Assembly (NCBI GenBank): GCA_030019025.1
Contig: JASEFR010000012.1
Coordinates: 1 to 51,536 of the forward strand
Origin: a bacterium
Lineage (GTDB): Bacteria; Hydrothermota; Hydrothermia; UBA1063
Direction: 5' to 3'
Length of the DNA: 51,536 nt
Positions 21,516-44,866 of this stretch are shown one piece after another. The position numbers and the translations under genes were made by a program. The notes below the pieces were generated by a model. That model saw nothing but the letters and a program-made list of their open reading frames with translations, was not told the DNA's origin and searched no databases. Each line of letters begins with the position of its first letter. Position 1 is the stretch's first letter.

Positions 21516-22130
21516 AACCCCAAAAGATGTCTTAAACTGTAATTCCAGAGGCCTCCTTTCACCATCAGCCTCAAAAAGATAAATAAGTTCCCCCGGAGTT
21601 TTTGAGAGCTTTGGATCTCTTAAATCCAGGTAGATTTTTATCAGCTCCTTCCCTTTAACGAAAATTCTTTTCGGCCTTATGTTGACTTTAAAACTCCTTT
21701 TATCCACATGGTAATTCAACACAAGAGTTGAATCCAGGTTCTCCTTTTCTCTCAAAAAGAAAATCAGCGAAATAGGATCAAAAGTACCGCCTGAAATTGC
21801 AAATTTTGAACCATCATCGTAATAAACGGTATCACCTGAATAGATGGCCTTCGATCGGTCTCTATACTTGCCTTCGCTTATCTTTTTTTCATAAGAATAG
21901 GTGAAAAAGCTATCAGAGTGAAAAATCGAAACAATGGAATCGTAAACGGGGAACAATGAATTTATAATTCCTTCACTTTGTACTACGAGAGTAGCCCGCG
22001 AAAGGTTCACCCCATCAATACTCGTAAAGTTCTTTTCGTATCTTAACGTGCCCCTTCCTGCCCGAATACTCCCAAAATAAATATTGTAATTAAGTAACTC
22101 ACAGCAAATCAGAAGTGGTAAAAAAATCAA
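21495..22130 (-). CDS. DUF3108-type periplasmic protein
   Basis: The 211-residue protein has an N-terminal hydrophobic stretch (MIFLPLLICCELL) and then a beta-rich domain. The early YNIYFGSIRAGRGTLRYE, the middle YSYEKKISEGKYRDR and the late GELIYLFEADGERRPLELQF match the DUF3108 pattern of exported proteins found near lipoprotein and cell-envelope genes. Function is unknown. It is the last gene of the lepB operon and its start overlaps the stop of ackA by 4 nt. The two adjacent cysteines in LLICCELL could serve as a lipobox, though it is a poor one. Confidence 0.7.
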   Translation of the reverse strand: MIFLPLLICCELLNYNIYFGSIRAGRGTLRYEKNFTSIDGVNLSRATLVVQSEGIINSLFPVYDSIVSIFHSDSFFTYSYEKKISEGKYRDRSKAIYSGDTVYYDDGSKFAISGGTFDPISLIFFLREKENLDSTLVLNYHVDKRSFKVNIRPKRIFVKGKELIKIYLDLRDPKLSKTPGELIYLFEADGERRPLELQFKTSFGVLKARLK

Positions 22131-23440
22131 CCCTTCTTCCTTTTCTCCAATTCCTTCCTGTACTGCTCTTCTCTGAACTCATTGACATAGTCAGGGGACT
22201 CAAAGGAGTACTTGAATCTTTCTGGAATATCATAGCGTCCTTCAAGAATTGCCACTGCATCCTCAACAAGAACCAGCTCTTCATCAGTAGGAATTACAAA
22301 AACCTTCACTGGTGAGTTGTCAGTGGAGATTATAAATTCGTGATTTCTCGACATGGCTTCTCTATTGCGTTTCTTATCCAGAATTATTCCAAGATTCTCA
22401 AGCCCCTCAAGGGACTTTTCTCTAATTAACCAACCCTTTTCACCGACACCAGCTGTAAATACAATGGCATCGACACGTCCGAGGGCAGCCATATAAGCGC
22501 CAATGTAAAACCTGATTCTGTAAGCCTCCATTTCTATTGCGAGAATGGCCCTTTCATCTCCATGTTCAGCGGCGATTTCCACATCTCTCCTGTCTGTATA
22601 TTTACCTGTAATTCCAAGAATTCCACTTTTCTTGTTGAGTATATCCATTACCTCTTTCAAACTCAAACCAGTTTTTTCAATGATGTAAGGAATAATGGCA
22701 GGGTCAATGTCTCCCGACCTTGTTCCCATTATAAGACCCTGAAGAGGTGTGAATCCCATGGAATGATCATAGGCTTTCCCATTCTTTATGGCAGTTGCTG
22801 ATGCACCATTGCCTATGTGGAGTGTGATAAGATTTACTTCGTGGGGATCTTTTTTGAGAAGAGCTGCTGCCCTTCTTGAAACGTAGAGATGAGAAGTGCC
22901 ATGGAATCCATACTTTCTTACACCATACTTCTCGTACCACTCATAAGGCACAGCGTAAAGATAGGTATGTTTGGGCATAGTTTGAAGAAAAGCGGTATCC
23001 ATGACCGCAATATGAGGGATATCCGGCATTAAATTCATCGCCGCCTCTATTCCCATGACATTTGCTGGATTGTGAAGTGGCGCAAGAGGGTAAAGTTCTT
23101 TGAACGTTTTTATCACTTCTTCGCTAATAATGACTGATTTGGTAAATTTTTCTCCTCCATGAACTACTCTGTGAGAAACTGCGTTAATTTCCTTAACGTT
23201 CTGAATTACTCCATACTCTGGGTCAGTTATGGTCTTGATCACGAGTTCAATTGCTACTTTGTGGTCCGGACACTCATGGTCAATTTTTACCGGATCTCTG
23301 CCAGGAACTTCGTGCAGAATAAAGGAATTTCCTATGGTAACCCGCTCAACGATGCCCTTACAAAGAGGCCTCCTTTTTTCCCAATCATAGACCTGATACT
23401 TTACCGAAGAACTGCCACAATTTAGAGTCAAGATTTTCAT
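22127..23440 (-). CDS. ackA: Acetate kinase
   Basis: The 437-residue enzyme interconverts acetyl phosphate + ADP and acetate + ATP. Diagnostic features are LTLNCGSSSVKYQVYD at the N-terminus, AVSHRVVHGGEKF, HIGNGASATAI, and GFTPLQGLIMGTRSGDIDPA in the catalytic centre. It is some 35 residues longer than typical AckA because of a charged C-terminal tail (FREEQYRKELEKRKKG). It overlaps the Ptb-like gene by 4 nt, so the acyl-phosphate-forming and ATP-forming steps are co-translated. A fermentative role is inferred. Confidence 0.95.
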   Translation of the reverse strand: MKILTLNCGSSSVKYQVYDWEKRRPLCKGIVERVTIGNSFILHEVPGRDPVKIDHECPDHKVAIELVIKTITDPEYGVIQNVKEINAVSHRVVHGGEKFTKSVIISEEVIKTFKELYPLAPLHNPANVMGIEAAMNLMPDIPHIAVMDTAFLQTMPKHTYLYAVPYEWYEKYGVRKYGFHGTSHLYVSRRAAALLKKDPHEVNLITLHIGNGASATAIKNGKAYDHSMGFTPLQGLIMGTRSGDIDPAIIPYIIEKTGLSLKEVMDILNKKSGILGITGKYTDRRDVEIAAEHGDERAILAIEMEAYRIRFYIGAYMAALGRVDAIVFTAGVGEKGWLIREKSLEGLENLGIILDKKRNREAMSRNHEFIISTDNSPVKVFVIPTDEELVLVEDAVAILEGRYDIPERFKYSFESPDYVNEFREEQYRKELEKRKKG

Positions 23441-24357
23441 TTCCTCACTCCCTTTTTACCTGCCAAAAGGGCTGCTAAGGCAATGGACATAAACTTGGAA
23501 TCTTCGCTATCCGCTCTGGATGTTAATACACAAGGGGCAGTGGCACCCGCCACAACGGCAGCTATTCTACCATTACCAAGCTGAGTACAGGTTTTGAAGA
23601 AAACGTTACCCGTTTCTATATTGGGGAAGATGAGAATGTCTGCCTCTCCTGCGCCTTCACCCTTAAACCCTTTAATTTCTGCGCATTCCTTGGAAACAGC
23701 AATATCCAGGGCAACCGGCCCTTCAACCTTCGCCCCCTTAATCTGACCCCTCTCTGCCATTACCTTAATGATGGCCGCATCAACAGTTGAGGGCATCTTA
23801 GGATTGACGGTCTCAACAGCACTTATGAGAAAGGCATAAGGATTCTCAATACCAAGGGCATGGGCAACTTCAATGGTGTACTGCAGGATTTTTACCTTTT
23901 GCTCAAGATCAGGCAAAATTATCACGGCCACATCGGCAACGACAAGCAGTTTGGGATAAGTGGGGATTTCAACCACCGTAACATGGGATAAAATACCGCC
24001 CGGCGGTACAAGTCCATTTTCCTTATCAAGGATCGCTCTCATATAATCTGCAGTATTAACAAGCCCCTTCATCAAAATGTCACCTTCACCGTCCTTCACC
24101 ATCTTAACCGCCATTTTGAGAGCCTTCTTCTGATCTTTTTCATCTATAATCTGGAATATAGATGGATCTATTCCATGCTCTTGGGCTACACTCTTTATTT
24201 TATCTTCATTGCCAACCATTATAACATCTACGAGACCCTCATTCTTCGCCCTTGAAACCGCTTCTATAGTGTGAGGATCCTCCCCACAGGCAACAACAAG
24301 TCTCATTGAAGGCATTCCCTTAACCGCTTCAACAATATGATCAAGTTTTGTTATCAT
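23437..24357 (-). CDS. ptb: Phosphate butyryltransferase/phosphate acetyltransferase
   Basis: The 306-residue protein belongs to the phosphate acyltransferase family. It has VVACGEDPHTIEAVSRA near the start, GEGDILMKGLVNTADYMRA around residue 90-110, the HVTVVEIP strand and FPNIETGNVFFKTC near residue 240. Length fits Ptb (about 300) rather than long Pta enzymes. It would convert acyl-CoA + phosphate to acyl phosphate + CoA, which AckA and Buk beside it then use to make ATP. Butyryl versus acetyl preference cannot be read from sequence; the adjacent buk favours branched or C4 acyl groups. Confidence 0.9.
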   Translation of the reverse strand: MITKLDHIVEAVKGMPSMRLVVACGEDPHTIEAVSRAKNEGLVDVIMVGNEDKIKSVAQEHGIDPSIFQIIDEKDQKKALKMAVKMVKDGEGDILMKGLVNTADYMRAILDKENGLVPPGGILSHVTVVEIPTYPKLLVVADVAVIILPDLEQKVKILQYTIEVAHALGIENPYAFLISAVETVNPKMPSTVDAAIIKVMAERGQIKGAKVEGPVALDIAVSKECAEIKGFKGEGAGEADILIFPNIETGNVFFKTCTQLGNGRIAAVVAGATAPCVLTSRADSEDSKFMSIALAALLAGKKGVRK

Positions 24358-24369
24358 CTTCCTACCTCC

Positions 24370-25470
24370 TTAAAATATATCCCTATCCTCTATGATTTCC
24401 TTTTCATAAATTTTTGCCATTTCTTCTCCTCTCAAAACCCTAAGAGCTCCTTCGGCGAGAGCTCTCATTTCATCACCACCCGGGTACACTTTAATCGGCG
24501 CTATAAACTTTACCCTTCTTTCAACCCAGGATACAAAATCCTTGTAATAGGCAAGTCCACCGGTCAAGACGATGGCATCAACTTCACCCTCCAAAACTGC
24601 TGCCATCATGCCGATCCACTTAGCCACAGTATAGGCCATTGCTTCCATTATAAACCGGGCCTTCTTATCCCCTTTATTCACCATCTCTTCCGCAACACGC
24701 ATATCATTGGTTCCAAGGTACGCAATGACTCCGCCCTTTCCAGCAAGAAGTTTCTTGATTTCGTCCTTTGTATACTGTCCTGAGAAGCAGAGCTCCACGA
24801 GCTGCCAGGCGGGTAAACTACCTGCCCTCTCCGGCGCAATTGGTCCATCACCATTTAAAGCGTTATTCACATCCACAATTTTTCCCTTCTTGTGGGCTCC
24901 AATGCTAATCCCACCGCCAAGGTGAACCACAATGAGATTTGCTTCTTCGTACTTTTTTCCGAGGTCTTTTGCCGCTATCCTTGCAATTCTTTTTTGGTTC
25001 AAAGCGTGGAGAATGCTTTTTCTTTTAATAAAAGGTAATCCTGTAACTTTTGCAATTGGCTCCATCTCATCAACAACAACAGGGTCAACGATGTAGGCAG
25101 GAATACCCAGGGGTCTTGCAATAGCATCGGCAATAAGGGCACCAAGATTGGAGGCATGTTCACCGTTTACCCCCGCTCTTAAATCTTCGAGCATCTTTTC
25201 CGTGACAGTATAAGTACCACTTGGAATCGGCCTTAAAAGTCCCCCACGGGCTACCACTGCGGAAAGAGTTTCGGCTTTTTCACCCCTCTTTTCCAGTTCT
25301 CTCAGAATAATTTCTTTCCTAAAATCGTATTGGTCAATAATTTTGGGAAATTTTGCCAGTTCCTCGGCCGAATGGCTAATATTTACAGAGAAAATTGGTT
25401 CCTCGTTGTTAAACAAAGCAATCTTTGTTGAAGTTGAACCTGGATTGATAACAAGAATCCTATAATTCAT
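24370..25470 (-). CDS. buk: Butyrate kinase
   Basis: The 366-residue ASKHA-fold kinase has VINPGSTSTKIALF at the N-terminus, ARGGLLRPIPSGTY, VVHLGGGISIGAHKKGK and VLTGGLAYYKDF, all typical of butyrate/branched-chain fatty-acid kinases. Together with Ptb it forms ATP from acyl phosphates. The start ATG lies 9 nt after the Sua5-phosphatase fusion gene. Having both buk and ackA beside one ptb suggests that several fermentation or amino-acid-derived acids are handled. Confidence 0.95.
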   Translation of the reverse strand: MNYRILVINPGSTSTKIALFNNEEPIFSVNISHSAEELAKFPKIIDQYDFRKEIILRELEKRGEKAETLSAVVARGGLLRPIPSGTYTVTEKMLEDLRAGVNGEHASNLGALIADAIARPLGIPAYIVDPVVVDEMEPIAKVTGLPFIKRKSILHALNQKRIARIAAKDLGKKYEEANLIVVHLGGGISIGAHKKGKIVDVNNALNGDGPIAPERAGSLPAWQLVELCFSGQYTKDEIKKLLAGKGGVIAYLGTNDMRVAEEMVNKGDKKARFIMEAMAYTVAKWIGMMAAVLEGEVDAIVLTGGLAYYKDFVSWVERRVKFIAPIKVYPGGDEMRALAEGALRVLRGEEMAKIYEKEIIEDRDIF

Positions 25471-25479
25471 ACATACCCC

Positions 25480-26535
25480 CTATTTTTCCAATCTTTCCTC
25501 CATGTAATTTTTCCAGTAATTTTCAAGAAAATACAAAATCTTATCCCTGACAAATCGATAGGTGCTGACAGGCGACCCAATTGGGTCTTCCACATCCCCA
25601 CCTTCCGGATCAATTAATTTCGCTTTGTAGCGGTATTGTTCCGGTAGCCATTCTATATGCTCCTTCGCCATTGCAATGATAAGATCCGCCATCTCCACTT
25701 CAAACTCCGTAATAGCCTTTGGCACGTGGGTGTAGTTTTCAACCCCAACTTCCTTAAGAACCAACTGCGCATTCGGGTTTATTTGCCTTTCATTAACCTG
25801 TAATGTTCCCCTCGATATTATTTGCAGATTTTCATATTCTTTCATCATTTTAGAAAATAGGGCTTCTGCTATGGGACTTCTACAGGTATTGCCGGTACAG
25901 AGAAGCACAAGGGTAAATTTCTCCTTTTTGCTGAATTTTACCTTTCTGCCCGCTACCTCTTCAATTTCGAGGTAACTCAATAGCCCCTTTCTCAAAATTA
26001 AGGGCCTTTCCGATGAGACATCTACAACCGTTGAGGGGATATTTCCAGCCTCACCATCTACAATAAAATCCAGTTCCTTACCGAGGACTTCAGAAACAGC
26101 CTTTCCCGTTTTTATGGGTGGCTCACCAGAAATATTTGCACTGGTTGAAGCCAGAGGTTCATCAACGGCTTTCAAAAGTTCAAGAAGAAATACTGTGTTG
26201 GGAATTCGTATACCTATCTTTCCCTCCTCTGAGATGCAGGCTCGGGGAGCATGTTCCGAGGCCAAGGCAACGAGAGTTAACGGGCCAGGCCAGTACTTTT
26301 TCATCATATTCTCCGCATATTCGGGTAAATTCTTAAACAACTTCTTCGCAGTTTCAATATCCTTTACAAAACAGGGTAAAACTTTAACTTTATCCCTCTT
26401 TTTAATATCAAAAATTTTATCAACCCCTTTTTCTGAAGACGCCCTTGCAATAAGCCCATAAACTGTCTCCGTTGGGACAGCAACAACACCATCCTTTTTC
26501 AAAACATCTACTACTTTCTTCAAAAGGTCTTCCAT
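25480..26535 (-). CDS. Fusion: Sua5/YrdC threonylcarbamoyl-AMP synthase + low-molecular-weight phosphatase (arginine-phosphatase-like)
   Basis: One 351-residue chain holds two enzymes. Residues 1-195 are a Sua5/YrdC domain (VAVPTETVYGL, KYWPGPLTLV, STSANISGEPP) that makes threonylcarbamoyl-AMP for the t6A base of tRNAs. Residues 205-351 are a low-molecular-weight phosphatase: the loop is C213-T-G-N-T217-C-R219, and the general acid is D317 in EDP. Thr at the fifth loop position, with CTGNTCRSP, matches the arginine phosphatase YwlE rather than tyrosine phosphatases, which usually have Ile or Leu there. In Bacillus the separate ywlC and ywlE genes are close neighbours, so a fusion is plausible. 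Phosphoarginine activity remains inference. Confidence 0.88.
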   Translation of the reverse strand: MEDLLKKVVDVLKKDGVVAVPTETVYGLIARASSEKGVDKIFDIKKRDKVKVLPCFVKDIETAKKLFKNLPEYAENMMKKYWPGPLTLVALASEHAPRACISEEGKIGIRIPNTVFLLELLKAVDEPLASTSANISGEPPIKTGKAVSEVLGKELDFIVDGEAGNIPSTVVDVSSERPLILRKGLLSYLEIEEVAGRKVKFSKKEKFTLVLLCTGNTCRSPIAEALFSKMMKEYENLQIISRGTLQVNERQINPNAQLVLKEVGVENYTHVPKAITEFEVEMADLIIAMAKEHIEWLPEQYRYKAKLIDPEGGDVEDPIGSPVSTYRFVRDKILYFLENYWKNYMEERLEK

Positions 26536-28886: not shown

Positions 28887-29702
28887 GTGCAAAGGTTTAA
28901 CATCTTGATCCTCTACTATACTGGTGGTGGAAATTCCCTCATAGTTGCTTCTACCTTAAAGGATAGATTGTCAAAGGATGGTTACGAGGTTGAGTTAAAA
29001 AGGATAACTAAAAAAATCGGAGAAGTGGACCTATTGCCTTACAACCTTGTCATTCTTATTACACCGGTCTATGCTTACCACGCACCGGGAACGGTTTTAG
29101 AATTTGTAAGGTCATTAAAAGAGGGGGACAAACCCTTCTACCTTATTTTAACCAAAGGCCTTATTCTTGGAAACTCAGCTTATGAATTACAACAAATCTT
29201 GAGGAGTAAGGGTTATAAAGTCAAAGGATTTCACGACATTATTATGGCTGACACCCTTTTCCTCCTTTCAGCCCCCAAAAACGGCTTATTAGAGCGATTC
29301 TATCTCTTGCCTAACCGCATTTTTAATCACCACCTAAAATCCATTTATCGCTCCATCGTTAAAAGCCTTCACTCCGATAAGGAAATAAAATTGCGCAGAA
29401 AGGTTTACGGTTTTATTACAGAATTTATTGCGAGAAATTTCTGGAAAAAGGTGAACAAATGGAAATCAATGCTTTATGCGGACGATAAATGTAATCTCTG
29501 CGGTGTTTGCGTTAAAGTTTGTCCAAGAAACAATATAAAAATAGAAGAAGGAAAAGTAATCTTTGGAGAAGATTGCGAATTTTGTACTGCCTGCATCCAT
29601 AGGTGTCCCCAGGAAGCGGTTCAGGTTGGGAAAATGACAGAAGGGAAGGCACGGTACAAAGTGGGAAAGGAAGCGGAATATTTTAGGAGAGTTTTGAAAT
29701 AA
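28887..29702 (+). CDS. Flavodoxin-ferredoxin fusion protein (EFR1 type)
   Basis: The 271-residue cytoplasmic protein starts with a flavodoxin-like FMN domain (LILYYTGGGNSLIVA, ILITPVYAYHAPGTV; about residues 5-150). It ends with a two-[4Fe-4S] ferredoxin domain (CNLCGVCVKVCPRN and CEFCTACIHRCPQEA; about 205-245). Such EFR1-family proteins move electrons between flavin and iron-sulphur carriers in anaerobes; the partner is not known. The GTG start is preceded by no ribosome site. It is a single-gene unit ending at the strong terminator at 29706-29744. Confidence 0.87.
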   Translation: MQRFNILILYYTGGGNSLIVASTLKDRLSKDGYEVELKRITKKIGEVDLLPYNLVILITPVYAYHAPGTVLEFVRSLKEGDKPFYLILTKGLILGNSAYELQQILRSKGYKVKGFHDIIMADTLFLLSAPKNGLLERFYLLPNRIFNHHLKSIYRSIVKSLHSDKEIKLRRKVYGFITEFIARNFWKKVNKWKSMLYADDKCNLCGVCVKVCPRNNIKIEEGKVIFGEDCEFCTACIHRCPQEAVQVGKMTEGKARYKVGKEAEYFRRVLK

Positions 29703-38375: not shown

Positions 38376-40031
38376 TTATTCTTTCAGCATAGGTATTTTG
38401 AGGCCGTGTTTCTTTGCAGTCTCTATAGCTATCTTATAACCTGCGTCGGCATGCCTAACAACACCAATTCCCACATCGTTGGTGAGCACCCTTTCAAGTT
38501 TCTTGTGGGTTAACTCTGTTCCATCTGCAACAATAACCATACCTGCATGTAAAGAATACCCAATTCCTACTCCACCACCGTGATGGAAGGATACCCAGGT
38601 CGCACCAGAAGAGGCATTGAGTAAGGCATTTAAAATAGGCCAATCAGCGATAGCATCAGAACCATCAAGCATCGCCTCCGTTTCTCTGTATGGTGAAGCT
38701 ACAGAACCCGTATCGTGATGATCTCTACCAATTACTATTGGCGCCTCCAGTTCGCCCTTCTTTACCATTTCGTTAATTGCAAGACCAAATTCCATTCTTT
38801 CTCCCTGCCCGAGCCAACATATTCTCGCAGGTAAGCCCTGGAAATGAACTTTTTCTTTCGCCATCTTTATCCACTTTTTCAGATGTTCGTCCTGTGGGAA
38901 TAGTTCCAGGACCTTTTCGTCAGTTTTGTATATATCTTCAGGATTTCCTGAAAGAGCAACCCATCTGAAAGGTCCTTTCCCCTCTGAGAAAAGATCCCTG
39001 ATAAATGCTGGAACGTAACCCTGGATATTGAAAGCATCCTTAACTCCATTATCATAAGCAAGCCTTCTCAGGTTATTTCCATACTCAAAGGTAATTGCGC
39101 CCTTTTTCTGCATTTCAAGCATCGCCCCAACATGAATAGCCGCCGATTCACCAACCCTCTTTAAATAATCCTCAGGATTCTTTTTCCTCAACTCCGCCGC
39201 CTCTTCAACGGTAAACCCCTTGGGTATATAACCATTCAATGGATCGTGAGCAGCAACCTGGTCAGTAAGAAGGTCGGGGACAAATCCACGTTTTACAAGC
39301 TCGGGGTGAACTTCCGCTGCATTACCAAGGAGCCCTATTGAAAGAGATTTACCCTGTTTCTTTGCTTCATCAATCATTGAAAGGGCCTTATCTAAATTGT
39401 CAGTCCAGGTATCAAGGTAGCCCATCTTTAGTCTTCTCTCTATAGCCCAGGGATTAACCTCTACTGCGAGCATAATCCCATCGTTCATCGTCGCTGCGAG
39501 AGGCTGGGCACCCCCCATTTCGCCAAGCCCAGCAGTAAGAATTACTTTCCCCTTAAGTGAACCACCAAAATGTTTCTTAGCCGCCGCATAAAAAGTCTCG
39601 TAGGTACCCTGGAGAATTCCTTGAGTCCCAATGTAGATCCAGCTTCCCGCCGTCATCTGACCATACATTATAAGACCACGTTCTTCCAATTCTCTGAAGT
39701 ATTCCCATGTGGCCCATTTGGGGACGAGATTCGAATTTGCAATTAAAACCCTTGGGGCCCATTCGTGGGTTTTAAAAACTGCCACAGGTTTGCCTGATTG
39801 TACGAGAAGTGTCTCATCATTTTCAAGATTCTTTAGTGTCTCAACGATGGCATCAAAACATTCCCAGTTTCTAGCTGCCTTTCCTGTCCCACCATAAACG
39901 ATCAAATTAGCCGGGTCTTTTGCAACCTCGGGATCGAGGTTGTTCATTAACATTCTCATTGCTGCTTCCGTAAGCCAGCTTTTACAAGTTAACTGAGTCC
40001 CTCTCGGGGCTCTAACTACTCTTCCTGACAT
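38376..40031 (-). CDS. hutU: Urocanate hydratase
   Basis: The 551-residue length fits urocanase, which uses tightly bound NAD to hydrate urocanate to imidazolonepropionate in histidine breakdown. Seen are [15 protein letters not shown], the NAD-binding [30 protein letters not shown] with the catalytic Cys, and [13 protein letters not shown]. The ATG at 40031 follows a GGGGGG ribosome-like site; a GTG at 40040 would add three residues. No hutH, hutI or formiminotransferase gene is in the window, and the neighbours are envelope genes. Confidence 0.95.
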
Positions 40032-40052
40032 ACTTTTCACCCCCCAAAAAGT

Positions 40053-41015: not shown

Positions 41016-41485
41016 TTTTGACTCCTTTTGGTAAAATACTCTTTTAATACCATTATAAAGTAAATGGCAAGTCCTATCGAAATACAAGAGTCTGCAACAT
41101 TAAAAACAGGCCACCTTAAGGTGGGCGAAAGGCCAATGTCAATAAAATCTATCACTTCTTTAAAATGGACCCTGTCTACAATATTGCCAGCAACCCCTGC
41201 CAGGATTACCGCGAAAAGGTTAGCATTAAAAACGTTCTTTGACTTAATAGAATCTAAAATCAAAGCAGTGAGAAAAACCACAGCAATTAAACCAAGAATC
41301 ACGTAGGGAAAATTCCGCCCGAGGGAAATACTCCATAGTGAATGTGGGTTTCGGACATGGGTAATTTTCACAAACTCTCCAATTACATTTACTTCCGCGC
41401 CATAAGGAAGAAGTTTTACGACAAGGTATTTGGTGATTCTGTCAATCGAAAAAAGTAAAGCAAAGAGAAAAATTACCGTCCTCAT
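41012..41485 (-). CDS. lspA: Signal peptidase II (prolipoprotein)
   Basis: The 157-residue protein has four membrane segments. Conserved elements are DRITKYLVVKLLPYG, FVKITHVRNPHSLWS, AGNIVDRV with one catalytic Asp, and FNVADSCISIG with the other. It cleaves signals of lipid-modified prolipoproteins, of which this window encodes several. The ATG shares bases with the TAA of the upstream membrane gene. It follows the four-gene unknown membrane cluster. Confidence 0.93.
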   Translation of the reverse strand: MRTVIFLFALLFSIDRITKYLVVKLLPYGAEVNVIGEFVKITHVRNPHSLWSISLGRNFPYVILGLIAVVFLTALILDSIKSKNVFNANLFAVILAGVAGNIVDRVHFKEVIDFIDIGLSPTLRWPVFNVADSCISIGLAIYFIMVLKEYFTKRSQK

Positions 41486-42129
41486 TAAACCAGCTTTAAC
41501 CAGTTATGAAGTAAGAAGTATATTCTACCAATTAAAAGAGAAATACGAGCCATTATCGTGTAACCAAAGGATGCGCCAAAGGTTATCATTAAGATTGTTA
41601 TGCCTACTTTCGAAGAAACACCCAATATTCCTTTGTGCTCCCGTGAAAAGTAGAAATATAGAATGGTGAATATTGTGCCCAAAACAATAATCCAATTGTT
41701 AAAAGTGTAGAGAATAGTCTCTCCCGCTGTTGAGCCCTTTACAAAGAGTGGGAGTATTGAAGCCTGAACCTGTGGTACTAAAAATCCCTGTGTCAAGCCT
41801 GTAATACCAAGACCTGCAGCCATACCCACGGTAAAAGCAATCGGCCAGCGGGAAAGCCAGGACAAAGGCTTTATAAATCTCAAAAGAATAAAGAGAGAAA
41901 GAATCAAAGGAATTATTAAGAGGTATCTCTGAACGCCCACTTTCTCAGTAAAACCAATAACCAGCTTTGGGTAGGCATCAAAAACCCAGACATACAAAAC
42001 CATGAAGGCTGCCGAACTCCCAACATAAACATGTTCGGCAAACTTATAAAAAGGATTGTCCTTATAAAGAAAGGACAAAATAGCTAAGGTGAAAAAGGCA
42101 GCTATCCACGTCCAGATAATGTTGCTCAT
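41485..42129 (-). CDS. Uncharacterised polytopic membrane protein (cluster member 4)
   Basis: The 214-residue protein has about six membrane segments. Conserved-looking features are YKDNPFYKFAEHVYVGSSAAFM near residues 23-44, the WLSRWPIAFTVGMAAGLGITG stretch around 95 and SREHKGILGVSSKVGI near 170. I recognise no known family. It overlaps the start of the previous gene product by 4 nt and shares one base with lspA, so it is translated in a chain of coupled genes. It may be the channel or anchor subunit of the system made by the four genes at 41485-44866. Confidence 0.75.
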   Translation of the reverse strand: MSNIIWTWIAAFFTLAILSFLYKDNPFYKFAEHVYVGSSAAFMVLYVWVFDAYPKLVIGFTEKVGVQRYLLIIPLILSLFILLRFIKPLSWLSRWPIAFTVGMAAGLGITGLTQGFLVPQVQASILPLFVKGSTAGETILYTFNNWIIVLGTIFTILYFYFSREHKGILGVSSKVGITILMITFGASFGYTIMARISLLIGRIYFLLHNWLKLV

Positions 42130-42950
42130 TTCTTTGTCCTCCTTAAAACAAGAAAACCAATATTACCAATTATTATAAAAGCAATAATTACCAGGTGTAT
42201 TACTGACTGTGGAAGCATTCCAATAGATGCCTGTCCTTTTATTCCCACAAGGGTCTCATAATCCGCCGCCCCTCTCAATCCTCCAATGACCGATATGACC
42301 TGGTTTGCCTGCAAGTAGGGATAGTAATCAGGGGTCATAACTGCAGTGGTCCCGAGGATTATAGGTAATCCATACCTTGCATATCCATACTGGATCCAGG
42401 AATCACCTACTGCACCCGCCTCAAGACCAAAAAGAAGCTTAATATCTTTATAATTCTTTACTCTTCTCATAAGCGGAAGAGAATCTATTGGCGTATATTT
42501 GTAGTCAGTTGAAAACACATTCCGTATCTCCTTGCCCATATTTATAATAACAGCAGCTACACCGGGACGATATCCAAGAAAAACATAGTCTACACCGTAA
42601 ACTTTGTTGTATTTCTTTGCCAAATCTTCCAACGCCTGTTGACCGAGAGGAAGACCTAAAGGCCAGTGACCAAGCATTATGACCTTTAGATTCTTGCGGA
42701 ATGCATGGTGCAAGAAAGTTTCCAACATGGGTTGAAGTTCAGGCATACTTGCAGCGTCGTAATCAATAGAAACCATCACTATTGTGCTTTCGGGCAAACT
42801 CTCGATATAGTTATAAGCCTTCACTACCTCAGGAAGAGGCTCAATTTTCATTGTTATCTTTGTCAAAATAGGAATTGCTGTGGCGAGGAAAACGGTAAGA
42901 TAAATTATTCTCCTATCAATCCTTGAAAGTTTCTCAAAAAATTCTCTCAT
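42126..42950 (-). CDS. Uncharacterised TM-soluble domain-TM protein (cluster member 3)
   Basis: The 274-residue protein has membrane segments at about 14-34 and 250-268 with a domain of about 210 residues between them. That domain looks alpha/beta: STIVMVSIDYDAAS then NLKVIMLGHWPLGLPL suggest parallel strands, with YRPGV at 127-131 and LGTTAVMTPDYYPYL at 199-213. RPGA and GTTAV recur in the same order in the DUF6754-like protein at 43766-44866. Function unknown. The ribosome site is AGGGGGA; it is 11 nt after cluster member 2. Confidence 0.75.
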   Translation of the reverse strand: MREFFEKLSRIDRRIIYLTVFLATAIPILTKITMKIEPLPEVVKAYNYIESLPESTIVMVSIDYDAASMPELQPMLETFLHHAFRKNLKVIMLGHWPLGLPLGQQALEDLAKKYNKVYGVDYVFLGYRPGVAAVIINMGKEIRNVFSTDYKYTPIDSLPLMRRVKNYKDIKLLFGLEAGAVGDSWIQYGYARYGLPIILGTTAVMTPDYYPYLQANQVISVIGGLRGAADYETLVGIKGQASIGMLPQSVIHLVIIAFIIIGNIGFLVLRRTKK

Positions 42951-42961
42951 CTTCTATCCCC

Positions 42962-43756
42962 CTATTTCATATAAGTTCTCTCTATGCCGAGAATTATTCT
43001 TATAGACATAGCTATACCACCCAGAGCAATTCCAATCATGATGCCTCTCTTTCCAGCCATCTGGGGCACGTTCATCAACCAATCGGAAAAGGAAGGTATG
43101 TGCTGTCTCAGATAAACCCATCCGATAGGGTATATCAAAACGACAAAGAGAATAGCAACCAAAATGTAAATAAGCTTTATTCTTGTCTCCGTGATTCCTA
43201 CAGCTTCTGAGTAAAAATACCATGCAAATATCAGGAAAATGATAGTAATTACGTAAGGAGCAGCACCCTGACCAAGAGGAATCCTGCCTAACATCACTAT
43301 TACCGCCGAAACCAGAAGCAGTGCCGAATTAAATTCTTTTGCTCTGAATGCCCGGTAAGCTGCACTGGCTATGAAAAAAGATAAAATTGCAAACATCGTA
43401 GACTGAAGTGGTACAAAAATCGAATTGTAAAAATATCTGGAAAAGGTTGATGAAGGCGAAAATGGATTGTGTTCAGGAGTTCTAATAATCTCAATTACTC
43501 CCCAGAGCAGGGTTAGAAAGAAACTCAAAATTAAAATGAGAGCGTAAGGAGCATCCTTTTCTTTGCGCCTTATTTTGCCAAAATTATATCCTAAAAGGCT
43601 ATCAATTCCAAGTAGCATAGTGAAACCGGAGACTATTATGTACCAGTCGTTGAATATCTCTTCAAGATTTCCAAAGGGCTTGTGGGGTATGAACAAGGCA
43701 AGGACGAGTAAAAACCCTGAAATAAAGGTTATTGCAAGTGGGATCTCTTTTTTCAT
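42962..43756 (-). CDS. Uncharacterised polytopic membrane protein (cluster member 2)
   Basis: The 264-residue protein has seven or eight membrane segments. Between them are charged loops, such as KIRRKEKDAPYAL and RTPEHNPFSPSSTFSRYFYNSIFVPLQ. The C-terminal part has MAGKRGIMIGIALGGIAMSIRIILGIERTY, with small-residue helix packing. No family recognised. It has a GGAGGGG ribosome site and 9- and 11-nt gaps to its neighbours, consistent with stoichiometric co-expression in one membrane complex. Confidence 0.75.
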   Translation of the reverse strand: MKKEIPLAITFISGFLLVLALFIPHKPFGNLEEIFNDWYIIVSGFTMLLGIDSLLGYNFGKIRRKEKDAPYALILILSFFLTLLWGVIEIIRTPEHNPFSPSSTFSRYFYNSIFVPLQSTMFAILSFFIASAAYRAFRAKEFNSALLLVSAVIVMLGRIPLGQGAAPYVITIIFLIFAWYFYSEAVGITETRIKLIYILVAILFVVLIYPIGWVYLRQHIPSFSDWLMNVPQMAGKRGIMIGIALGGIAMSIRIILGIERTYMK

Positions 43757-43765
43757 TATCCCCTC

Positions 43766-44866
43766 CTAAAAAATGTTGAAAAAGTTCACCAGCATATGGT
43801 TTCCAATCCCAAAGGTCTCCATCAGAGAGCCGATAAAGATAATTATAACAAGAACCATCTTGATGTAGTCCTCACCCTTTATCGTACCAAGCGAAAGGGC
43901 ATCTCGGGAAAGATAGGCGCTAGCAGCATACATCTCTTCCCCAATAAGGGTGTAATCCGTTGAGGCTATGAAGAAAGGAAGCTGAGTAACCGCGGTAGTT
44001 CCAGAAATTTGAATGGCTCCGATTGAATGGCCCGTTTCTGCAAGGATCAAAGATTCTGCGTAGAAATATCCTTGAAGAAAAACCGCACCAGGTCTCTGCC
44101 TCATCATAATACCGTCCACACCAGCGGCATAACCAAACTGATCAGATGTAAGGTAATAGATATTAGATTCCTTGTAAAGGTCAGGTCTTCCCGCTTCTAT
44201 ATAACCTTCTTTTACCGTTTCCTGTGCTGCAACCATTACGATGGGATCGTAGCAAGGGACAATAACATCTGCTTCGTATTCCGCGGCCTTGTAAGCTACC
44301 CTTTTCAATATAGCAAGAGAAGCTACCGTCGGAATATCACTTATAAAACCAAGACCCATAACGTAGAGAATAGGTCGGCCCATTTCCGTAGAACGCCCCA
44401 CAGCCTCGTCTATGGCTTCAAGCCCCGCGATTTTCCTTATGAAGAGATTTTTATCCACTCTCGCCCTCATAATGAAGTAGATAAGGAAGGCAGTATAAAA
44501 TATGAGGATAATTAAAACAGAAAGTCTTCTTGAATTAAACCACTGCGCTGTGCTTATTGCAGGCTGAGTAGTTTTACCCTCCGCTATCAACGAGTCTCCC
44601 TGATAGATTTGTACCCTGTAATAATAAGGAGTTTTATCGACAACTCCTAAGTCTTGAAACTGAGTTTCCACTTTAAAAAGGGTCTCAATTAATGTATCGG
44701 GAACGTTGGGGTCCTGGGTTCTGTAGATTTCTATCTTGCTTACCGCCCAGGTAGTGTCCAATCCCCAGGTTACTGTAATGCTTCCCCCAGCATCGTTAGG
44801 TGTATCATAGGCCCTAACATTTACTGGGGATGCTTGCCACAAAAGTAAGAGAATAGCAAGCTTCAT
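43766..44866 (-). CDS. FN3 + DUF6754-like membrane protein (cluster member 1)
   Basis: The 366-residue protein begins with a signal peptide (about 1-12). A fibronectin-III-like domain (15-103: GGSITVTWGLD, KIEIYRTQDP, PYYYRVQIYQGD) comes next, then a membrane segment (115-134). A soluble domain of about 200 residues has GRPILYVMGLGFISDIPTV at 163-181, RPGA at 258-261 and GTTAV at 289-293. A last membrane segment spans 336-354. The layout matches proteins labelled DUF6754, of unknown function. The soluble domain would be cytoplasmic if FN3 is outside. The ribosome site is AGGAGG; the ahcY stop is 9 nt upstream. Confidence 0.78.
   Translation of the reverse strand: MKLAILLLLWQASPVNVRAYDTPNDAGGSITVTWGLDTTWAVSKIEIYRTQDPNVPDTLIETLFKVETQFQDLGVVDKTPYYYRVQIYQGDSLIAEGKTTQPAISTAQWFNSRRLSVLIILIFYTAFLIYFIMRARVDKNLFIRKIAGLEAIDEAVGRSTEMGRPILYVMGLGFISDIPTVASLAILKRVAYKAAEYEADVIVPCYDPIVMVAAQETVKEGYIEAGRPDLYKESNIYYLTSDQFGYAAGVDGIMMRQRPGAVFLQGYFYAESLILAETGHSIGAIQISGTTAVTQLPFFIASTDYTLIGEEMYAASAYLSRDALSLGTIKGEDYIKMVLVIIIFIGSLMETFGIGNHMLVNFFNIF

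Follow-up and report, generated by a model that had tools for sequence, protein, structure and literature searches.

It is well supported, on genomic grounds, that four consecutive genes in the analysed window (a stretch of 51,536 nucleotides, contig C12 of a 1.73 Mb genome that is 98.9% complete) encode the subunits of one membrane complex, because they co-occur almost perfectly in a fixed order, are separated by short gaps and have duplicated and diverged as a unit. Both the single complex and its status as an undescribed system, which the initial annotation had proposed, thus stand. The second of these is also well supported, since three of the four proteins (B, C and D) belong to no family and the literature search for DUF6754 or PF20539, the family of protein A, gave no paper. 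The system looks like a widespread cell-envelope machine across uncultured phyla, to which an ATPase is linked that has no known job there. Our main reading, to which we give a probability of roughly 0.36, is that the inner-membrane complex is an ATPase-coupled machine that transports or assembles something in the envelope; that the task is transport or assembly is a guess.

The unit A-B-C-D runs from 44866 to 41485 on the minus strand, between ahcY and lspA. Gene A (43766..44866) encodes 366 aa, gene B (42962..43756) 264 aa, gene C (42126..42950) 274 aa and gene D (41485..42129) 214 aa. A and B are 9 nt apart, B and C 11 nt, and C and D overlap by 4 nt. The spacing towards the flanks is equally tight, with 9 nt between ahcY and A and a 1-nt overlap between D and lspA. 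The upstream neighbour matches PF05221 and PF00670, as expected for ahcY, and the downstream one matches PF01252 and, above its cut-off, TIGR00077, identifying lspA. Among the matches listed, the closest named relatives of protein A come from candidate division WOR-3 and Stahlbacteria genomes. A general link between lspA and the cassette was considered and rejected, because the 9 loci that show it all come from relatives of the window.

Some other genes of the window are worth recording. Downstream of the lspA region, amid envelope genes, lies a complete urocanase (38376-40040; PF01175, PF17391, PF17392), alongside which no further histidine-degradation gene was noticed. Genes for an acetate kinase, a phosphate acetyl/butyryltransferase and a second member of the acetate/butyrate kinase family are consecutive at 22127-25470 (PF00871, PF01515, PF00871). 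A 351-aa ORF (25480-26535) by eye resembles a fusion of a Sua5/TsaC-type domain with a low-molecular-weight protein tyrosine phosphatase domain. The 271-aa protein encoded at 28887-29702 consists of a flavodoxin-like domain fused with a 4Fe-4S ferredoxin domain.

The arrangement of the four genes is conserved far beyond this genome. Families for B, C and D and the order of the genes were found by iterated HMM searches, in a sample of A loci made up of regions from the window's phylum and the best 80 of at least 577 relatives from named genomes. Of the 188 non-redundant A genes, 160 have B, C and D behind them on the same strand and in this order; among the other 28, 18 are truncated where a contig ends, which leaves 10 true exceptions, so that the order is present in 160 of about 170 copies with room for it to show. 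Median gaps are 9, -2.5 and -4 nt. Co-occurrence in other genomes, the check that the initial annotation had set beforehand, is therefore found in several phyla. Within the window's phylum (relatives of candidate division WOR-3/Stahlbacteria), DUF6754 is present in 140 of 147 genomes with at most 7 copies per genome, and D in 144 of 147, while C occurs in all 21 close relatives searched; none of 14 well-known control genomes has DUF6754. The named loci, again the best 80 of at least 577, come from WOR-3/Stahlbacteria, Zixibacteria, Latescibacterota, Poribacteria, Fermentibacteria/Aegiribacteria, Eisenbacteria, Coatesbacteria, Edwardsbacteria, TA06 and Cloacimonadota, labels that were taken from the records and are in part outdated. 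One record titled 'Proteobacteria bacterium OTbin.15' (JAACEC010000039.1) evidently stems from a WOR-3-type genome, since its GlmL match coincides in contig number, coordinates and bits with that of a genome of the window's phylum (G008).

Order and tight spacing are retained over several phyla at a mean identity of about 41-48%, while the outer neighbours change completely. Tandem ABCD arrays are common, with up to three consecutive cassettes in a single locus, and both tandem and dispersed copies have nearly always moved as ABCD. Two subunits point to the same nearest relative in 96-108 of 150 complete cassettes, and the divergence of paralogues within a locus correlates between subunits (0.70-0.88), although related sequences share ancestry and these correlations are hence not independent proof. 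Taken as wholes, the cassettes clearly move and diverge together. The window's own genome carries a second, divergent cassette that is split over two contigs, with A and an open-ended B at the end of contig C13 (G000:C13:49424-51131, or L003:7425-9132) and C and D at the beginning of contig C23 (G000:C23:1-1491, L239); given this split, the two contigs probably abut.

Protein A is a clear member of DUF6754 (375.1 bits with PF20539 against a cut-off of 27, covering 250 of 257 positions), and is the only one of the four with a Pfam match. It begins with a stretch that is signal-peptide-like in the alignment, followed by an FN3-like domain (residues ~18-100, 44567..44815), which matches the Fn3-like PDB chain 3mpc by profile (E=3e-4) and which is also recovered as an FN3 fold by Foldseek. 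The DUF6754 match (residues 106-355, 43802..44551) comprises a TM helix (112-137), a six-strand Rossmann-like domain (~149-322) and a second TM helix (323-351) in an AF2 model built from 78 sequences (pLDDT 93.2). Protein C, modelled from 73 sequences (pLDDT 96.4), has a TM helix at residues 13-30, a Rossmann-like domain at 40-235 and a further membrane helix at 240-273. In the models, the soluble domains of A and C are both doubly wound alpha/beta domains, each made up of six beta-alpha units and flanked by a pair of TM helices. Invariant residues are numerous in A (R144, R158, E161, Q243, R256, E271, E277, Q295, D304, E310 and E311), and in C they include E71, D121, D149 and E232.

By sequence, the PDB search gave no match for C, and for A it matched the FN3 part only. 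Pfam and NCBIfam likewise assign C to no known enzyme family, and Foldseek returns generic Rossmann matches alone (best E 3.5e-3, TM-score at most 0.36 by query length); the weak top matches are nucleotide-handling folds such as PpnN and dehydrogenases. The models of A and C show an identical order of elements, with a GTTAV stretch after strand 5 in both. Common descent of the two soluble domains was considered and is not claimed, because no profile method backs it: hhalign finds no similarity over the domains, and the best ungapped profile windows are structurally non-equivalent.

The lysine and arginine bias beside the TM helices places the domains on opposite membrane faces. About 6.5 such residues lie on the Rossmann-domain side of the first TM helix of A as against 3.5 on its outer side, and the tails of C, both short, carry 4.2 (N-terminal) and 3.8 (C-terminal). 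The Rossmann-like domain of A is therefore predicted to be cytosolic and its FN3 domain periplasmic, while for C a periplasmic domain and cytosolic N and C termini are predicted from hydropathy and charge. The initial annotation had envisaged a soluble domain on a single face of the membrane, which is probably wrong: there appear to be two Rossmann-like domains, one on each side, in addition to the FN3 domain outside. Its structural description otherwise (the four ORFs and their lengths, both flanking genes, the FN3 and DUF6754 features of A, and the layout of C with one domain between two TM helices) agrees with the results given above, as does the polytopic nature of B and D with those that follow.

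B and D are polytopic according to hydropathy and alignment. In the window copy of B there are about 8 hydrophobic segments, as against about 6 in most relatives, and the motifs SAAYRAFRA and KRGI..GIER of B are conserved. D has 5-6 TM segments and invariant residues at W8, D24, N25, E32, Q120, R195, S197, R202 and W210. Charged or polar invariant residues are present in all four proteins, and many of them are charged. No homology between B and D was found. Among the window proteins, B, C and D have no Pfam match and A to D have no NCBIfam match; scanned members of B, C and D match no classical cofactor family either. Known families that do turn up for these three proteins match one or two members each and were taken as chance. 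The main text of PMC10849945, which catalogues novel families from uncultivated taxa, does not mention WOR-3.

Outside the window's class, neighbour clustering and HMM searches show that the cassette often lies on the same strand as, and closely spaced with, three further genes, which encode a GlmL/MutL-type ATPase, a barrel-sandwich protein (c9) and a small protein (c2). In several phyla these form one operon with the cassette. Among the 80 named A loci (the best 80 of at least 577), the ATPase is found in 19, c9 in 20 and c2 in 16, while for one single-copy gene the chance expectation, as estimated from genome sizes, is about 0.3 in the 0.79 Mb of such loci. One locus (L247) reads gcvPB, c2, GlmL, c9, ABCD, ABCD, lplA, and another (L246) ABCD, c2, GlmL, a 246-aa gene, c9, ABCD. 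In much of the phylum, the GlmL-type ATPase gene, often together with c2, lies usually directly behind genes of glycine cleavage, namely gcvPB and in many cases also gcvT and gcvH (L247:172-1954; similarly in L222-L236). The associated ATPase scores 420 bits with PF13941, yet stays below the NCBIfam cut-offs both for GlmL proper (226.6 vs 475 bits) and for the ornithine protein (205 vs 600 bits). The c9 protein is very conserved and 373 aa long; its similarity to RnfC_N and Biotin_lipoyl (E ~3e-4) is below the Pfam cut-offs, and its middle part shows a weak likeness to RraA (E=0.003).

The ATPase and c9 are each present in 139 of the 147 genomes of the phylum. The two genomes of genus g67 (94-95% complete) are without A, D, the ATPase and c9 alike, which counts as one loss event. 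Another genome (G013) has the ATPase and c9 and is without A and D; since both are retained there, they may also serve a task that is independent of the cassette. Both genes are far from the cassette in the window's genome (C3:56056 for the ATPase, C2:22729 for c9), as in most of the phylum. Divergent GlmL-type ATPases are fused with c9-like barrel/RraA-like domains in WOR-3 genomes (L240:1260-4112, 950 aa, and L241:1584-4187, 867 aa), and because of this fusion the ATPase and c9 very likely act together. The neighbours of these fused paralogues give no consistent metabolic hint and include no aminomutase genes. Glutamate mutase E is the usual client of GlmL; it is absent from the window's genome (PF06368), and nothing exceeded the cut-off in 21 genomes of relatives. 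Service of the associated ATPase to glutamate mutase was considered and rejected, because this client is missing from the genomes searched. To our knowledge, the working mechanism of the GlmL/MutL family is still unknown.

Other neighbours of the cassette are bound to particular lineages. In some WOR-3 families it is followed by a DUF4388 gene, two small genes for cytosolic proteins and two for membrane proteins, and ExbB/ExbD/TonB. The DUF4388 (PATAN) gene and the two small cytosolic proteins, which by eye look roadblock-like and have no Pfam match, occur at 13 loci in two WOR-3 families. ExbB/ExbD/TonB genes lie downstream in several WOR-3 families and ExbB also in Fermentibacteria, an association that is likewise lineage-bound. 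In some phyla lplA and gcvP are found nearby.

According to our main reading, A, B, C and D would be the obligate subunits of a single complex in the inner membrane of uncultured diderm bacteria. Its membrane core would consist of B and D; A would expose its FN3 domain outside and its Rossmann-like domain in the cytoplasm, and C would hold a second Rossmann-like domain outside. On the cytoplasmic side, the ASKHA ATPase of the GlmL/MutL type and c9 may drive or gate the complex, the work of which could be to move or assemble something across or in the envelope. The gene unit with its conservation and joint duplication, the domain folds and the genomic tie to the ATPase and c9 are results of the analysis, while the physical complex, its topology and its coupling to the ATPase are inferred. 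This reading is favoured by the fixed order and joint divergence of the cassettes, the excess of the ATPase, c9 and c2 at A loci, the fusion of the ATPase with c9, the joint loss in g67, the missing glutamate mutase E, the many invariant charged residues and the ExbB/ExbD/TonB genes behind some cassettes. Against it count the distance of the ATPase and c9 from the cassette in most of the phylum, their retention in G013, the lineage-bound nature of the ExbB association and the generic Rossmann matches of C. For envelope transport or signalling, as suggested in the initial annotation, the gene neighbourhood gives indirect hints. More tentatively, ABCD with the GlmL-type ATPase, c9 and c2 could be seen as an ATP-driven transmembrane machine that has not been described before, with a Rossmann-like domain on either side of the membrane and near-universal in a group of uncultured diderm phyla.

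It could be imagined instead that the complex is a transmembrane signal relay, in which a ligand or the state of the envelope is sensed outside, by the FN3 domain of A and the Rossmann-like domain of C, and the signal reaches cytosolic partners through the cytosolic domain of A. The layout is indeed sensor-like, with domains predicted on both faces; up to seven copies per genome would suit several sensors, and the DUF4388 protein and the two roadblock-like small proteins at 13 loci could be such partners. However, no gene for a kinase, cyclase, GTPase or DNA-binding protein accompanies the cassette across phyla, its near-universality and strongly conserved intracellular domain would rather be expected of a housekeeping machine, and two obligatory polytopic subunits exceed the needs of a relay. 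We consider this explanation unlikely. We regard as improbable, to a similar degree, that the proteins form a membrane-bound enzyme, in which A, C or both use their Rossmann-like domains to bind a nucleotide-type cofactor or substrate and modify a lipid, sugar or cofactor at the membrane, with the lipid substrate held by B and D. The predicted Rossmann-like fold of both soluble domains, the nucleotide-handling nature of the weak top matches of C, and the numerous Arg, Glu, Asp and Gln residues that are invariant in A, like the Glu and Asp of C, would fit an enzyme, and so would lplA and gcvP nearby in some phyla. Against it stand the scanned members of B, C and D, which match no classical cofactor family, and the low TM-scores of C to known enzymes.

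Finally, the four could be unrelated housekeeping membrane genes that have been co-inherited by descent, without forming a system. Most loci do come from related candidate phyla. This is nevertheless hardly credible in view of an order and spacing that are held across several phyla while the outer neighbours change, and of copies that nearly always move as ABCD. The remaining probability goes to something else.

As components, FN3, Rossmann-like folds, DUF6754 and PF13941 are known, and it is the ABCD system that is new, in the sense that there is no known kind under which it could be filed rather than that of a proven new function. An unnamed four-subunit membrane complex in about 95% of the genomes of a phylum, in several other phyla and in multiple copies is rare, and it probably matters for the building or energising of the envelope in these uncultured bacteria. 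ABCD, the GlmL-type ATPase, c9 and c2 constitute a concrete gene set for joint expression and structure determination, and the cassette provides a setting for the GlmL/MutL family outside mutase pathways.

The known memberships that were tested are found for DUF6754 and the generic Rossmann-like fold alone. DUF6754 is itself a family without a known function and covers one of the four subunits. The GlmL/MutL family (PF13941) comprises accessory proteins of glutamate and ornithine mutases; the cassette-linked ATPase, encoded outside the window, is a strong PF13941 member, but scores too low for either GlmL proper or the ornithine protein in NCBIfam, and glutamate mutase E is missing. The similarity of c9 to barrel-sandwich proteins of the RnfC/NqrA type is weak, and Pfam finds no Rnf or Nqr membrane subunits among A-D. 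Genes for ExbB-ExbD-TonB outer-membrane transport follow the cassette in several lineages, but there is no match to ExbB or ExbD in either B or D, and none of these genes adjoins the window's cassette. ABC-type and PilMNOP-type assemblies combine a cytosolic ATPase or ASKHA protein with inner-membrane subunits that have periplasmic domains. No ABC ATPase is found among A-D or as a conserved same-strand neighbour across phyla. The likeness to PilMNOP lies in a cytosolic ATPase/ASKHA protein alongside inner-membrane subunits that bear periplasmic domains, although the outer domain of C is Rossmann-like, whereas the outer fold of PilN and PilO is ferredoxin-like.
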